A stretch of DNA of 64,000 nucleotides from Brachybacterium massiliense. Lineage in GTDB: Bacteria > Actinomycetota > Actinomycetes > Actinomycetales > Dermabacteraceae. This document shows, one piece after another, positions 44,563 to 49,152 of this stretch. Location of the stretch: contig NZ_FXXB01000008.1 of the NCBI RefSeq assembly GCF_900184245.1, positions 1,178,001-1,242,000 on the forward strand, written 5' to 3'. Every line of letters begins with the position of its first letter. Position 1 is the stretch's first letter. The position numbers were made by a program, and so were the translations under genes. The notes under the pieces are model-generated. The model did no database searches and was not told the origin of the DNA. It saw nothing but the letters and a program-made list of their open reading frames with translations.

Positions 44563-45243
44563 ATGTCCGTCACTCATCTGTCCACCAGCGCCCAGAACTA
44601 CCTGAAGGCGATCTGGGGGCTGTCCGAGTGGAGCGATGAGGCGGTGACGTTGACGCTCATCGCCCAGCGTGTCGGGGTCGCGCTGTCCTCCACCTCCGAT
44701 GCGGTGCGGAAGCTCACCGAACAGGGCCTGCTGACCCACGCCCGATACGGCGCGGTCGAGCTCACGGAGACCGGTCGCACCTACGCCCTGACGATGGTGC
44801 GACGGCACCGCTTGATCGAGACGTTCCTCGTGGAGGTCCTCGGCTACCGGTGGGACCAGGTCCATGACGAGGCCGAGGTGCTCGAGCATGCCGTCTCGGA
44901 CCTCATGGTCGAGCGGATCGATCATGTCCTGGGTCGCCCCGTGCGCGATCCTCACGGCGATCCGATCCCCACGGCGGAGGGTGCCGTGACCATCCCCGAC
45001 GCTCGGCGCCTCACCGAGGTCGGTGTGGGCAGACGGGTCGTAGTGGAGCGGATCTCCGACTCGGACCCGTCGATGCTGCAGTTCTTCGCCTCCCAGGGCA
45101 TAGGCGTCGGGGTCACGCTCACGGTCGAGGCAGGCGCACCCTTCTCCGATGCGCTGGAAGTGCATGCCGCCGCATCGAGCGCGCCGGTCCTGCTGGGGCG
45201 CGCGGCGACGGATGCCCTCTACGTCTCGACGGAACCGGCCTGA
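44563..45243 (+). CDS. mntR: DtxR/MntR family metal-dependent regulator
   Basis: Metal-sensing repressor (226 aa) of the IdeR/DtxR type. N-terminal winged helix with ALSSTSDAVRKLTEQGLLTH as recognition region, metal/dimer helices with RRHRLIETFLVEVLGYRWDQ, HDEAEVLEHAVSDLMVERID and a C-terminal SH3-like FeoA domain. Adjacency to a manganese-type ABC importer makes it likely an Mn-responsive MntR rather than an iron regulator. Its last 25 bases overlap the 3' end of the permease gene. It probably represses the importer, and perhaps the divergent nrdF, when the metal is abundant. Confidence 0.88.
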   Translation: MSVTHLSTSAQNYLKAIWGLSEWSDEAVTLTLIAQRVGVALSSTSDAVRKLTEQGLLTHARYGAVELTETGRTYALTMVRRHRLIETFLVEVLGYRWDQVHDEAEVLEHAVSDLMVERIDHVLGRPVRDPHGDPIPTAEGAVTIPDARRLTEVGVGRRVVVERISDSDPSMLQFFASQGIGVGVTLTVEAGAPFSDALEVHAAASSAPVLLGRAATDALYVSTEPA

Positions 45244-46121
45244 TCCGCAGGCAGACGCACCGCTCCGCGTCGATGACGGCGAGCCCGGGAGCCCTGCCCG
45301 AGGAGACCGTGCTTCGGGCCCAGGAGGTAGACGAGAGCGAAGGCGCAGCCCTGGGTGACGACGACGAGGCCCCCGGGTGAGGCGTCGGCCCAATAGCTGA
45401 TGTAGATCCCGAGCACCGAGCAGAGGGAGGAGAGCACCGGTGCGATCACGAGCATCCGGCCGAAGCGATCGGTGAGCAAGTACGCGGTGGCTCCCGGGAT
45501 GATCAGCATCGCGACGACCAGCACGACTCCCACGACCTGGAGGGCGACGACCGCGGTCAGCGCGAGCACCCCGAGCAGCAGGGCGCCGAGGACGCGCGGG
45601 GACAGGCCGATGGCATGGGCATGCGTCGGGTCGAAGGCGTAGAGCGTCAGATCGCGTCGCGTGAGGACGAGGACGGTGAACGCGGCACTCGCGAGGACGG
45701 CGACCTGGACCAGATCTGCACGGGAGACGCCGAGGATGTTGCCGAAGATGATGTGATTGAGGTCGGTGTGGCTGGGGGTGACCGAGATGAGCACCAGCCC
45801 CAGCGCGAAGAGCGTGGTGAAGACGATGCCGATGGCGGCATCCTCCTTGACCCGGCTGGTCCCACGCACCAGCCCGATCAGCCCGACGGCGGCGACGCCG
45901 AAGACGAGCGCACCGAGGGCGAACGGGACGCCGAGGATGTAGGCGATCACCACGCCGGGGAGCACGGCATGGGAGACCGCATCGCCCATGAGCGACCAGC
46001 CGATCAGCACGAGCCAGCACGACAGGAGCGCGCACACCACCGCCGCGATCACGGTGGTGACGAGTGCACGGGTCATGAAGTCGTACGAGAGCGGTTCGAT
46101 GATCCAGTCCAGCGGGGTCAT
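45219..46121 (-). CDS. manganese/zinc-type ABC transporter permease
   Basis: Membrane subunit (300 aa, eight or nine helices) of the ABC-3 family importing Mn, Zn or Fe. It shows the family segments LMGDAVSHAVLPGVVIAYIL and DPTHAHAIGLSPRVLGALLL and the C-terminal VLIIPGATAYLLTDRFGRML-type region (here LIIPGATAYLLTDRFGRML). The tail is Arg-rich and overlaps the mntR 3' end. The ATG overlaps the ATPase stop. Third gene of the leftward operon. Confidence 0.92.
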   Translation of the reverse strand: MTPLDWIIEPLSYDFMTRALVTTVIAAVVCALLSCWLVLIGWSLMGDAVSHAVLPGVVIAYILGVPFALGALVFGVAAVGLIGLVRGTSRVKEDAAIGIVFTTLFALGLVLISVTPSHTDLNHIIFGNILGVSRADLVQVAVLASAAFTVLVLTRRDLTLYAFDPTHAHAIGLSPRVLGALLLGVLALTAVVALQVVGVVLVVAMLIIPGATAYLLTDRFGRMLVIAPVLSSLCSVLGIYISYWADASPGGLVVVTQGCAFALVYLLGPKHGLLGQGSRARRHRRGAVRLPADQAGSVET

Positions 46122-46858
46122 GCCACTCCGTCCCGTCCGAGCACGTCCAGGCCGAAGGCGAGCGCGAGCCGTTCGGGCGCGAGGGCCTCGTCCACCTTCC
46201 CGTGGAAGAGGACCTTCTGCAGCAGCAGCACCGCCTGGTCTGCCAGCTGCGGCAGCGCATGCAGGTCGTGGGTGGAGACCAGAACGGTGCGGCCGTCATC
46301 GGCGAGCGCGCGCAGGAGCTCGACGATGGTGGCCTCGCTGCGTTTGTCCACGCCGGCGAACGGCTCGTCCAGCAGCATGATCCGCGCATCCTGCGCGATC
46401 GCCCGGGCGACGAAGGCACGCTTCTTCTGCCCGCCGGAGAGCTGACCGATCTGCCGTTCGGCGTACGCCGTGAGCTCCACCTGCTCCAGGGCGTCGTCGA
46501 CGGCGAGACGGTCGCAGGCCCGCACTCGTCGCGTCGGGCCCTGGCGACCGAACCGGCCCATCATCACCACGTCGCGCACGCAGACGGGGAAGGACCAGTC
46601 CACCGCCTCGCTCTGGGGCACATAGCCCACCGCTCCCCGCCGGCGTGCACGGGCGGGCGATGCGCCATCGAGCAGGATGCGGCCGCTCTCGGGCCGGATC
46701 ATTCCGGTGATCGCCTTGAAGAGGGTCGACTTCCCCGAGCCGTTCATCCCGATCAACCCCGTCACCGCCCCCGTCGGCACCTCGAGCGATACGTCGTCGA
46801 GTGCGAGCGCCTCGCCGTAGCGGACGGTCACGCCGTCGACCTCGATCGCCGCCGTCAC
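46118..46858 (-). CDS. manganese/zinc-type ABC transporter ATP-binding protein
   Basis: ATPase subunit (246 aa). Walker A GMNGSGKSTLFKAI, Q-loop GYVPQSEAVDWSFPVCVRDV, signature LSGGQKKRAFVARAIAQ and Walker B IMLLDEPFAGVDKRSEAT. The typical PQ-x-x-x-vDWxFP segment is characteristic of Mn/Zn importer ATPases. The start is a GTG at 46858 that overlaps the stop of the binding-protein gene (GTGA), so an ATG is not used. Powers metal uptake together with the preceding permease and lipoprotein. Confidence 0.93.
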   Translation of the reverse strand: MTAAIEVDGVTVRYGEALALDDVSLEVPTGAVTGLIGMNGSGKSTLFKAITGMIRPESGRILLDGASPARARRRGAVGYVPQSEAVDWSFPVCVRDVVMMGRFGRQGPTRRVRACDRLAVDDALEQVELTAYAERQIGQLSGGQKKRAFVARAIAQDARIMLLDEPFAGVDKRSEATIVELLRALADDGRTVLVSTHDLHALPQLADQAVLLLQKVLFHGKVDEALAPERLALAFGLDVLGRDGVA

Positions 46859-47787
46859 GAGTCGCTCCCCGTGAGTGCTGCGACGATCGTGTCCGTGTCG
46901 TGCCGGATGAGATCCAGGTAGGTGGGCACCGGCCCGTCGGCCTCGGAGAGGGAGTCGACGTACAGCGTCCCCCCGAAGCGTGCGCCCGTGGCGCCGACGA
47001 TCTGCTGCATGGGGGCGTCGGAGACGGTGGACTCGCAGAACACGGCCGGCACGTCGTTTTCGTCGACGAACTCGATCACGGCGGCGATCTGCCGCGGCGT
47101 CGCCTGCTGCTCGGCGTTGACGGGCCAGATGTACTTCTCCGTCAGCCCGGCATCGCGGGCGAGGTAGGAGAACGCACCCTCGCAGGTCACCAGTGCTCGG
47201 TGGGAATCCGGCAGGCCATCGAGCGCGCCGACGAGATCGTCCTGCACCTCCTGGAGCTGCTGCGTGTAGAGCTCCCCGTTGCTCTCGTAGTCCGCCGCGT
47301 GCGCCGGGTCGAGATCGCTGAAGACGTCGACCATGTTGTCGACGTACACCTGCACGTTCTTCGGGCTCATCCAGGCGTGGGGGTTGGGTGTGCCCGCATA
47401 GGCGTCCCCGGCGATGTCGATCGGATCCACCCCCTCGGACACGACGGCGTGGGGCGCGTCCGCCTCCTCGACGAACTGCGCGAACCACACCTCGAGGTTG
47501 AGCCCGTTGTCGAGGATGAGGTCGGCGTCCGCAGCTCTGCGGATGTCTCCCGGAGTCGGCTCGTAGCCGTGGATCTCCGCCCCCGACTTGGTGATCGATT
47601 CGACCACCAGGTGCTCGCCCGCGACGTTCTGTGCGATGTCCTGCAGCACGGTGAACGTCGTGAGCACCACCGGCTTCTCACCGTCCGCACCCTCTGTGCC
47701 CACCTCTGCGGAACATCCCGCGAGCACCAGCGCAGTGCTTGCTGTGATCCCTGCCAGCGCTGTCTTCCATCCCCCGTGTCCGAGCAT
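46855..47787 (-). CDS. manganese/zinc-type ABC transporter substrate-binding lipoprotein
   Basis: Cluster A-I metal-binding protein (310 aa). Signal and lipobox TALVLAGC; ligands are expected among the His in AEIHGYEPTPGDIRRA, the His of NPHAWMSPKNV, a Glu of CESTVSDAPMQQI (His or Glu in MntC/PsaA) and a late Asp. The His/His/Glu/Asp set is typical of manganese- and iron-binding members, in contrast with His-rich loops of Zn proteins, and none is present here. GGAGAGGAG lies before the ATG. First gene of the operon, divergent from nrdF. Confidence 0.9.
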   Translation of the reverse strand: MLGHGGWKTALAGITASTALVLAGCSAEVGTEGADGEKPVVLTTFTVLQDIAQNVAGEHLVVESITKSGAEIHGYEPTPGDIRRAADADLILDNGLNLEVWFAQFVEEADAPHAVVSEGVDPIDIAGDAYAGTPNPHAWMSPKNVQVYVDNMVDVFSDLDPAHAADYESNGELYTQQLQEVQDDLVGALDGLPDSHRALVTCEGAFSYLARDAGLTEKYIWPVNAEQQATPRQIAAVIEFVDENDVPAVFCESTVSDAPMQQIVGATGARFGGTLYVDSLSEADGPVPTYLDLIRHDTDTIVAALTGSDS

Positions 47788-47846
47788 CCGTGACTCCTCT
47801 CCCTTCCGACCGCGACCACGGTGGTCCCGACCCGCTGATCCTAATG

Positions 47847-47877
47847 TTAGGCACGCCGAAGTTATCAAATCGGCGTG
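47847..47877. promoter_or_regulatory. palindromic operator at metal-transporter/nrdF divergent promoter
   Basis: TTAGGCACGCCGAA (47847-47860) is a near-palindrome of DtxR-family type, overlapping a perfect 8-bp-arm palindrome CACGCCGA-N10-TCGGCGTG (47852-47877). The inner GCCGA-N10-TCGGC form repeats the one upstream of mntR. It lies 60 bp before the binding-protein start. Confidence 0.62.
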
Positions 47878-47907
47878 GCGTAACCGAAATGGGCAACACC
47901 CCTGATA

Positions 47908-47954
47908 TCACTACATGTGGCGCCTGACCGCCCATCGGGCACAACATCTAGACC
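47908..47954 (+). promoter_or_regulatory. pair of NrdR-like boxes upstream of nrdF
   Basis: TCACTACATGTGGCGC (47908) and GCACAACATCTAGACC (47939) share the core CAC-W-ACAT-S-T-R-G and lie 31 bp apart (three helical turns), as do NrdR boxes upstream of ribonucleotide reductase operons. NrdR is an ATP/dATP-sensing repressor; its gene is not in this window. Confidence 0.55.
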
Positions 47955-47961
47955 GTCCGCA

Positions 47962-48121
47962 GGGGCGAGCACTGCTGCCTGGCCGGCCCCGTCATCTCCC
48001 GCAGATGCGGCGTCCCGGAGCTCTCTCGCTTCGAGCTCCTGGGCACCCGCACGCCGTCGACCGCGTGGACGACGGGCTCGACCGCTTCTGGGAGCAGGCG
48101 CAGCCGGCCGACGACACGTAG
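47962..48121 (+). pseudogene. nrdI: nrdI relic, 5'-truncated with one-base frameshift
   Basis: About 52 codons of the C-terminal third of the flavodoxin-like activase NrdI remain. The first part reads GEHCCLAGPVISRRCGVPEL then SRFELLGT, very close to the normal NrdI end. One C is missing in a C run near 48047; in the next frame the sequence resumes HAVDRVDDGLDRFWEQA and ends in TAG at 48121. The FMN-binding N-terminal part is absent. The relic abuts the second NrdR-like box and ends 20 bp before nrdF, in the order seen in nrdI-nrdF operons. No start codon serves it. Confidence 0.7.
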
Positions 48122-48141: not shown

Positions 48142-49152
48142 ATGACCATCACATCGACCGCCAGAGGGTCGATCACCCCTCCCGGGTACCGGCACGATCC
48201 CGCCGCGCGGCTGCGCCCGATCAACTGGAACCGGGTCGACGACGAGAAGGACCTCGAGGTGTGGAACCGGCTGACCGCGAACTTCTGGCTGCCGGAGAAG
48301 GTGCCGCTGTCCAACGACCACCAGGCCTGGCAGGGCCTCGCTCCCCACGAGCGCACACTCACCATGCGGGTCTTCACCGGACTCACGATGCTCGACACCG
48401 TGCAGGCCACCGTCGGCGAGGTGTGCCAGATCCAGGACGCCCGCACCGAGCACGAGGAGGCGGTCTACACCAACATCGCGTTCATGCAGTCCGTCCATGC
48501 TCGCTCGTACTCTTCAGTGTTCTCGACCCTGACCAGCACCCGTGAGATCGACGAGGCGTACGAGTGGGCGATCGGCAATGACCTGCTGCAGGAACGGTGC
48601 AAGAAGGTGCTGCACCATTACTACGGGCCCGACCCCCTGAAGCGGAAGGTCTCCTCCACCCTTCTCTCGAGCCTGCTGCTCTACGCCGGCTTCTACCTGC
48701 CCCTGCACTTCTCCGTGCGCGCCACCCTCACGAACACCGCCGACATGATCCGGCTGATCCTGCGCGACAAGGCCGTCCACGGCTACTACTCCGGCTACAA
48801 GTACCAGCGAGGCCTCGACGCGCACCCCGATCGTCGTGACGAGATGGGCGAGTTCACGTTCGCCCTGCTCGACGAGCTCTACGAGCTCGAGCTCGACTAC
48901 TCCGGTGAGCTCTACGCACCGCTCGGCCTGATGGAGGACGTCTCCGCCTTCGTGCGCTACAACGCGAACAAGGCCCTGATGAACCTCGGCTATCCGGCAC
49001 GGTTCCCCGCTGACGAGACGATGGTCAGCCCCGAGATCCTCGCGGCCCTCGCGCCCAGCGCGGACGAGAACCACGACTTCTTCAGCGGTTCCGGCTCGAG
49101 CTACGTCATCGGCAAGGCCGAGCACACCAGCGACGACGACTGGGACTTCTAG
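48142..49152 (+). CDS. nrdF: ribonucleotide reductase small subunit NrdF2, metal-free class Ie (QSK) type
   Basis: Radical-carrying subunit (336 aa) for reduction of ribonucleotides with an NrdE partner, which is not encoded in this window. It aligns over its length with NrdF: D85 in FTGLTMLDTVQ, H119 and Y123 in QSVHARSYSSVF, H213 in KAVHGYYSGYKYQ and the C-terminal ADENHDFFSGSGSSYVIGKA. The three ligand glutamates are replaced: Q116 (for Glu before SVH), S176 (LLSSLLLYAGF, Glu in LLESFLFYSGF) and K210 (RDKAVH for RDEAVH). In 2018 this Gln/Ser/Lys set was described for NrdF2 of Aerococcus urinae, which works without metal and carries a DOPA radical on the tyrosine. AGGAG precedes the ATG. 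Confidence 0.9.
   Translation: MTITSTARGSITPPGYRHDPAARLRPINWNRVDDEKDLEVWNRLTANFWLPEKVPLSNDHQAWQGLAPHERTLTMRVFTGLTMLDTVQATVGEVCQIQDARTEHEEAVYTNIAFMQSVHARSYSSVFSTLTSTREIDEAYEWAIGNDLLQERCKKVLHHYYGPDPLKRKVSSTLLSSLLLYAGFYLPLHFSVRATLTNTADMIRLILRDKAVHGYYSGYKYQRGLDAHPDRRDEMGEFTFALLDELYELELDYSGELYAPLGLMEDVSAFVRYNANKALMNLGYPARFPADETMVSPEILAALAPSADENHDFFSGSGSSYVIGKAEHTSDDDWDF

Follow-up and report, generated by a model that had tools for sequence, protein, structure and literature searches.

A QSK-type class Ie ribonucleotide reductase subunit beside a Mn-type importer in Brachybacterium massiliense, and its likely role under manganese starvation

Described class Ie reductases and the Brachybacterium locus

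The closest described counterpart of the protein studied here is the class Ie R2 subunit (NrdF) of Gardnerella vaginalis, which is of the QSK type, has the same residues and belongs to the same clade. According to PMC11846895 this enzyme is metal-free: the protein held only traces of Mn and Fe, its DOPA was formed with NrdI, and it was active with reduced NrdI, dithionite being used in the assay to reduce the latter. The same article counts 275 QSK genes in 266 genomes and gives the Gardnerella gene order as nrdHIEF. Another class Ie type, VPK, is represented by Aerococcus urinae, Streptococcus pyogenes, and Mesoplasma florum. It has the metal-free principle in common with QSK, but differs from our locus in its residues, in its nrdFIE order, and in occurring mostly in Bacillota. 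Class Ie genes of S. pyogenes are repressed by Fe and Mn (Do 2019, as cited in PMC8463856). PMC8463856 describes the conditions under which class Ie is used as not understood, and cites work in which flavodoxin reductases serve the class Ib NrdI of B. cereus in vitro. Together, these findings in the two sources provide a precedent for the principle of the system proposed below.

The literature searched gave no description of the linkage to Mnt genes, the promoter motif, the plasmid-like cassette, the broken nrdI, or the FMN reductase reported here, and in the parts consulted we found no mention of an importer linked to VPK class Ie. The neighbourhood search of PMC11846895 was limited to RNR genes on one strand and no farther than 300 nt, which means that importers would not appear in it, and the word "transporter" was not found in its main text.

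Two further systems resemble parts of the locus. The class Ib NrdF (Mn2-Tyr; 8j4x, 1kgn, and the copy on contig C1 of the same genome, 62% identical) is of the same family and has the same types of partners, but keeps all three Glu and has no Mnt neighbour at any of 56 loci. The MntABC/SitABC-type importers with MntR have the gene set, the type of regulator and the mntC-promoter palindrome found here, but not the ribonucleotide reductase subunit that the present unit includes. Compared with Gardnerella, our locus has nrdF with a broken nrdI and adjoining mntCAB and mntR, whereas the Gardnerella-type rows have neither an Mnt gene in the available flank nor the palindrome.

The window, a stretch of 64,000 nucleotides, contains a gene that, judged from its residues, is an intact class Ie nrdF of the QSK type:

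48142..49152, + strand: nrdF, class Ie QSK type, 336 aa, intact frame with ATG at 48142

Its product matches PF00268 (E 7.8e-78), scores above the NCBIfam cut-offs for two class 1b NrdF subfamily models and TIGR04171, and has D85, Q116, H119, Y123, S176, K210, and H213 at the metal-ligand and radical positions. The closest solved structures are 8rag and 8rah (E 2.3e-153, alignment covering residues 9-336), which we believe are the structures that PMC11846895 describes for the Gardnerella QSK enzyme; Q, S, K, and Tyr match them residue for residue. We aligned 85 NrdF of classes Ib and Ie, from 80 GTDB loci (two with two genes), the window, and contigs C1 and C6 of its genome (labels such as L004 and L107 denote individual compared loci or rows). 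At window positions 85/116/119/123/176/210/213, 39 proteins read DQHYSKH and 46 read DEHYEEH, with no intermediates. The four carboxylates and two His required of a class Ib R2 are not all present in the window protein: Q116, S176, and K210 occupy metal-ligand sites in place of three Glu, and D, H, H, and the radical Tyr are retained. An enlarged set gave 72 DQHYSKH and 61 DEHYEEH, plus one decayed gene (L107). In a tree of 122 rows, from which L108 was omitted as too short, one branch (100/100) separates 61 QSK rows from 60 ordinary rows, the row nearest to the window NrdF being a second copy in the same genome, on C6. A sequence-only reading of the gene had given its residue numbers exactly, and its assignment to the QSK type is upheld by the alignment and by the single clade. 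It erred in taking Aerococcus as the QSK parallel, a model ruled out by PMC11846895, which places Aerococcus in VPK and characterises the QSK enzyme of Gardnerella. Since QSK enzymes were already known and characterised, the window protein is a new member of the type. It appears to be a metal-free enzyme, and by analogy with the relative described in PMC11846895 would use the same DOPA chemistry.

Manganese genes and a palindrome at QSK promoters

The genes and promoter elements next to nrdF are the following:

44563..45243, + strand: mntR-like gene for a DtxR-family regulator
45219..46121, - strand: importer permease (ABC-3)
46118..46858, - strand: importer ATPase (scanned as 46118-46804)
46855..47787, - strand: mntC-like substrate-binding lipoprotein of a Mn-type ABC importer (PF01297, E 7.5e-81)
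47846..47861, no strand: MntR-box-like palindrome GTTAGGCACGCCGAAG in the stretch separating mntC from nrdF, scoring 15.8 bits with the mntC-promoter matrix
47869..47884, no strand: second, weaker, similar element ATCGGCGTGGCGTAAC, found by eye
47908-47923 and 47939-47954, no strand: two NrdR-box-like sites with a spacing of 31 bp, matched to the NrdR-box consensus

By Pfam and NCBIfam families the importer gene set is complete, with a ZnuA-type substrate-binding protein (SBP), an ABC ATPase, and an ABC-3 permease. The best matches of the SBP and the ATPase are Mn/Fe families and those of the permease are SloB and the Zn-type AztB, all below the NCBIfam cut-offs. The regulator has DtxR-type domains, its closest solved relative is 5zr4, with which it has EVLEHAVSD in common, and it carries Glu at the Mn-type ligand position, where DtxR has Cys; the NCBIfam MntR models match below cut-off. 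A Mn-type importer with its MntR, as proposed earlier, is in this way confirmed at the level of the family, the named Mn/Fe families being matched below their cut-offs. The divergent pairing proposed with it stands for nrdF and mntC, but not for mntR, which lies beyond mntCAB and is convergent with mntB.

We trained a palindromic matrix on ten mntC promoters away from nrdF, trying each 16-mer as a start and keeping out L161 (short upstream), and it converged on GTTCGGCATGCCGAAC. In regions outside the training set, a palindrome of at least 10 bits lies upstream of 30/61 QSK operons versus 1/59 ordinary ones, after one promoter shorter than 150 bases was dropped on each side (62 to 61, 60 to 59). 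Without the six operons sharing the mntC promoter the counts are 24/55 and 1/59 (Fisher 1.5e-8; some QSK promoters are near-copies, so this value overstates independence). Presence of the palindrome changed at least nine times on the QSK tree, and 31/61 QSK promoters are without it (<10 bits). Its tie to linkage is loose, with the box in 16/23 linked and 11/27 unlinked QSK rows. In Corynebacterium, where each of the five distinct rows has mntR nearby, the score is 10.6 in two rows and 1.4-4.8 in the other three. Because the palindrome is a feature of mntC promoters and mntR genes are adjacent, we regard the copy between mntC and nrdF as operator-like, a candidate MntR operator. Letters similar to ATCGGCGTGGCGTAAC occur at the equivalent place in L004, L007, L009, and L116. 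Against shuffled sequence, the best single NrdR-like site falls short of significance in the window (P 0.17) and has P 0.03 at C6; at the nrdH promoter of class Ib, 0/300 shuffles reach the best site. A regulon search by pattern across the genome was dropped as too noisy (64 sites with three mismatches versus 21 for a control pattern). In two Corynebacterium promoters (L019 and L020) another perfect palindrome, CGTAGTTGCAACTACG, is seen by eye upstream of nrdI, and is perhaps a local MntR site.

The linkage to Mnt genes extends to other QSK loci. Counting up to 9 kb from where nrdF starts, any Mnt gene is found at 23/62 distinct QSK genes versus 0/56 distinct ordinary ones from loci that have no QSK (Fisher 3.4e-8, which overstates independence because QSK is a single clade, one split on the tree). 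By gene, MntR is found at 20 versus 0, the SBP at 13 versus 0, and the permease at 10 versus 0. Eleven rows whose nrdF DNA duplicated another row, an ordinary one among them, were removed before counting, L107 was excluded from every count, and four ordinary nrdF within QSK loci, none with Mnt genes, were counted separately. Flanks reaching 5 kb or more ahead of the start of nrdF and 6 kb or more beyond it were available at 44/62 QSK and 47/56 ordinary loci. Because QSK is one clade, repeated gain or loss inside it is better evidence, and Mnt linkage was gained or lost at least 11 times (any Mnt gene, 50 rows scored). The arrangements are 1) mntCAB divergent from nrdIF in Brachybacterium; 2) mntR ahead of nrdIEF in Corynebacterium; 3) mntR ahead of nrdIF in Actinomyces; and 4) mntCAB and PEPCK divergent from nrdIEF in Leucobacter 7(1). 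Among 38 genomes of the genus Brachybacterium, 10 have QSK and 15 the importer; nine of the 10 QSK genomes also have the importer, six in the same locus, and the tenth is an assembly of 530 contigs. Conversely, 39/62 QSK genes are free of Mnt neighbours within 9 kb or within the available flank. Both Mnt genes and the box are missing from four Streptomyces rows and 11 rows of the Bifidobacteriaceae clade, so that control by Mn is not general to QSK.

A second cassette and the probable role of the locus

The genome (8 contigs) has three nrdF: that of the window, one on C6 (92% identical to it), and one on C1 with ordinary ligands, near nrdH, nrdI, nrdE, and, by eye, a nrdD-like gene. The C6 and C1 copies were absent from the sequence-only reading. 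Contig C6 (58.6 kb) carries a complete cassette with mntR, mntBAC, nrdI, nrdF-QSK, an FMN reductase, and a short alanyl-tRNA synthetase. After these come an IS3-type integrase and a P-type metal ATPase, and farther along the contig encodes a TrwC relaxase and a conjugative coupling protein, proteins of the ParA and ParB types, and a resolvase; a small glutaredoxin resembling NrdH is also encoded. On these genes, we read C6 as a putative conjugative plasmid or part of one. CtaG/CopD-like and PepSY-like proteins were seen by eye on C6 (L004, L208, L209), which holds two small glutaredoxin-like proteins.

Near-identical cassettes cross families. L027 (Pseudoglutamicibacter) and L117 have 8.3 kb in common at 99.5%, and L112 and L114, of different families by their taxonomic codes, have 5.9 kb in common at 99.6%, the source of L114 being a one-contig genome. 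In a plasmid collection (517 records), identity was 60-69% among the 40 matches listed, with three further records at 80-90%. As the kit moves between families and can sit on a plasmid-like contig, metal-free DNA synthesis could be acquired.

We consider it likely that the window locus is a mobile module, repressed by MntR, that serves as a backup for DNA synthesis when Mn is short. Use under Mn and Fe starvation had been proposed before, and for Mn it is now backed as the likeliest role by the common operator-like palindrome and the recurrent linkage. The mechanism would involve 1) occupation by MntR-Mn, when Mn is plentiful, of the GTTCGGCATGCCGAAC-type palindrome between mntC and the nrd genes, silencing both sides; 2) joint expression of the importer and the class Ie NrdF when Mn falls, the starved cell scavenging Mn while a Mn-independent R2 subunit supplies dNTPs; 3) activation of the QSK NrdF by NrdI, reduced flavin and O2 hydroxylating Y123 to DOPA, with formation of the radical; 4) pairing with NrdE supplied by the ordinary class Ib genes; and 5) in many relatives, supply of electrons to NrdI by the NADPH:FMN-reductase-like protein encoded beside nrdF. 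We infer the binding of MntR, the timing, the electron donor, and an in-trans source of NrdI and NrdE. If this reading is true, the cell could continue DNA synthesis once manganese runs out. What the locus offers for testing is a single operator-like site, one Mn regulator, and a specific reductase as the candidate donor to NrdI.

A functional class Ie NrdF whose tie to Mn is incidental is the strongest alternative, and we deem it unlikely. Here the neighbours would be metal-related cargo of a plasmid or island, and the nrd genes would respond chiefly to dNTP demand through NrdR or to oxidative stress. The near-identical cassettes across families, the conjugation genes and P-type metal ATPase of C6, the NrdR-like sites at the window promoter, and the 39/62 QSK genes without an Mnt neighbour in the available flank all suit such an explanation. 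It accounts poorly for a palindrome at 24/55 QSK operons that do not share the mntC promoter and for Mnt neighbours at 0/56 ordinary loci.

Upstream of nrdF the window contains a remnant that had escaped the sequence-only reading:

47964..48121, + strand: nrdI remnant, by DNA alignment to the C6 nrdI (tblastn 86% over residues 110-138 of 169)

Only its 3' part aligns with the intact C6 nrdI, the 5' part being absent and the rest having a one-base gap; the promoter part is retained. The remnant rules out a solitary nrdF as the original arrangement. Since the local gene is broken, NrdI for the window NrdF, if used, must come in trans, and intact genes are present on C6 and C1, either of which would supply it in the mechanism above. 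The window QSK copy, without an adjoining nrdI, could be on its way out. That it is already a decaying chromosomal relic, only the plasmid-like C6 copy being at work, is a reading we find quite improbable: the remnant, and the decayed QSK copy L107 of a related genome, whose radical Tyr is gone, speak for it, but the window frame is intact with every active-site residue present, the promoter palindrome is retained, and nrdF is conserved by its low dN/dS (NG86), 0.083 to the C6 copy and 0.108-0.195 to six other Brachybacterium copies (L098, 0.108), constraint that may predate the loss of nrdI. It is least probable of all, to the point of being hardly credible, that the window NrdF is a Mn or Fe enzyme with an unusual site, for instance one ion held by D85/H119/H213, since the two His and one Asp remain but the three Glu are replaced, one by Lys, and the relative with the same set holds only traces of Mn and Fe (PMC11846895).

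Genes that accompany the cassettes

Several other genes recur near QSK nrdF. We suggest, tentatively, that Actinobacteria may share a mobile, in part plasmid-borne Mn-starvation island that exchanges enzymes for metal-sparing versions: a metal-free ribonucleotide reductase that brings an NADPH-driven donor for NrdI, the atypical PEPCK described below, and an AlaRS reduced to its catalytic part, together with importer and MntR.

First, an NADPH:FMN-reductase-like gene (PF03358), mostly shortly downstream of nrdF, lies within 9 kb of 22/62 QSK genes versus 1/56 ordinary genes (18/39 versus 2/44 loci in an earlier, coarser clustering). Its subfamily occurs in 15/392 genomes of the order, 11 of them QSK genomes; for the remaining four no QSK NrdF match was listed. 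As the class Ie donor is unnamed in the literature consulted, its product ranks as a candidate electron donor to NrdI. A box of its own is mostly lacking: among six copies away from nrdF only L225 has the palindrome, which was found neither at L218, L223, L224, L226, and L227 nor at the copies beside PEPCK.

Second, a GTP-PEPCK lies near 9/62 QSK genes versus 0/56 ordinary genes. It belongs to an atypical clade:

L014:5302-7179, - strand: atypical PEPCK
L009, L010, L012, L013, L026, L027, L030, L117, L178-L190: further atypical PEPCK rows (L178 and L180 repeat L117 and L026)

All 22 rows of the clade (20 distinct genes) have Lys replaced by Ile, His by Gln, and the P-loop Cys by Ser, whereas the three residues are kept in 17/17 ordinary PEPCK. 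The Lys and His are Mn ligands, at two of three such sites. The palindrome lies within 350 bases upstream of five of the nine cassette genes (L009, L010, L012, L014, L027), not of the other four. The gene is not confined to cassettes, as ten rows (L181-L190) carry the same replacements with no nrd gene within 1.5 kb on either side and no palindrome of at least 10 bits.

Third, a short AlaRS (465-472 aa) has no C-terminal half and has CGPD in place of CGPC, the replaced Cys being part of a zinc motif:

L004:8412-9809: short AlaRS, 465 aa
L022:9802-11220: short AlaRS, 472 aa

The C6 gene has its own palindrome (14.6 bits). Linkage is seen at 4/62 QSK loci, which is not significant against ordinary loci (P 0.07), and also at the decayed L107; relatives at 53-55% (L232-L236) occur in five genomes without a QSK match.

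The decaying QSK nrdF of L107 has small in-frame deletions besides the substituted radical Tyr, and adjoins FMN reductase and AlaRS genes that are free of internal stops:

L107:8324-9268, - strand: decaying QSK nrdF of a related genome

Finally, a small protein of about 75-100 aa, for which no Pfam or NCBIfam match was found with the L020 copy, often ends in a C-terminal AGPPPAFG.RPF.P and is encoded near 12/62 distinct QSK genes versus 0/56 ordinary genes:

L020:8965-9243, and 14 more loci, three of them duplicates: small protein
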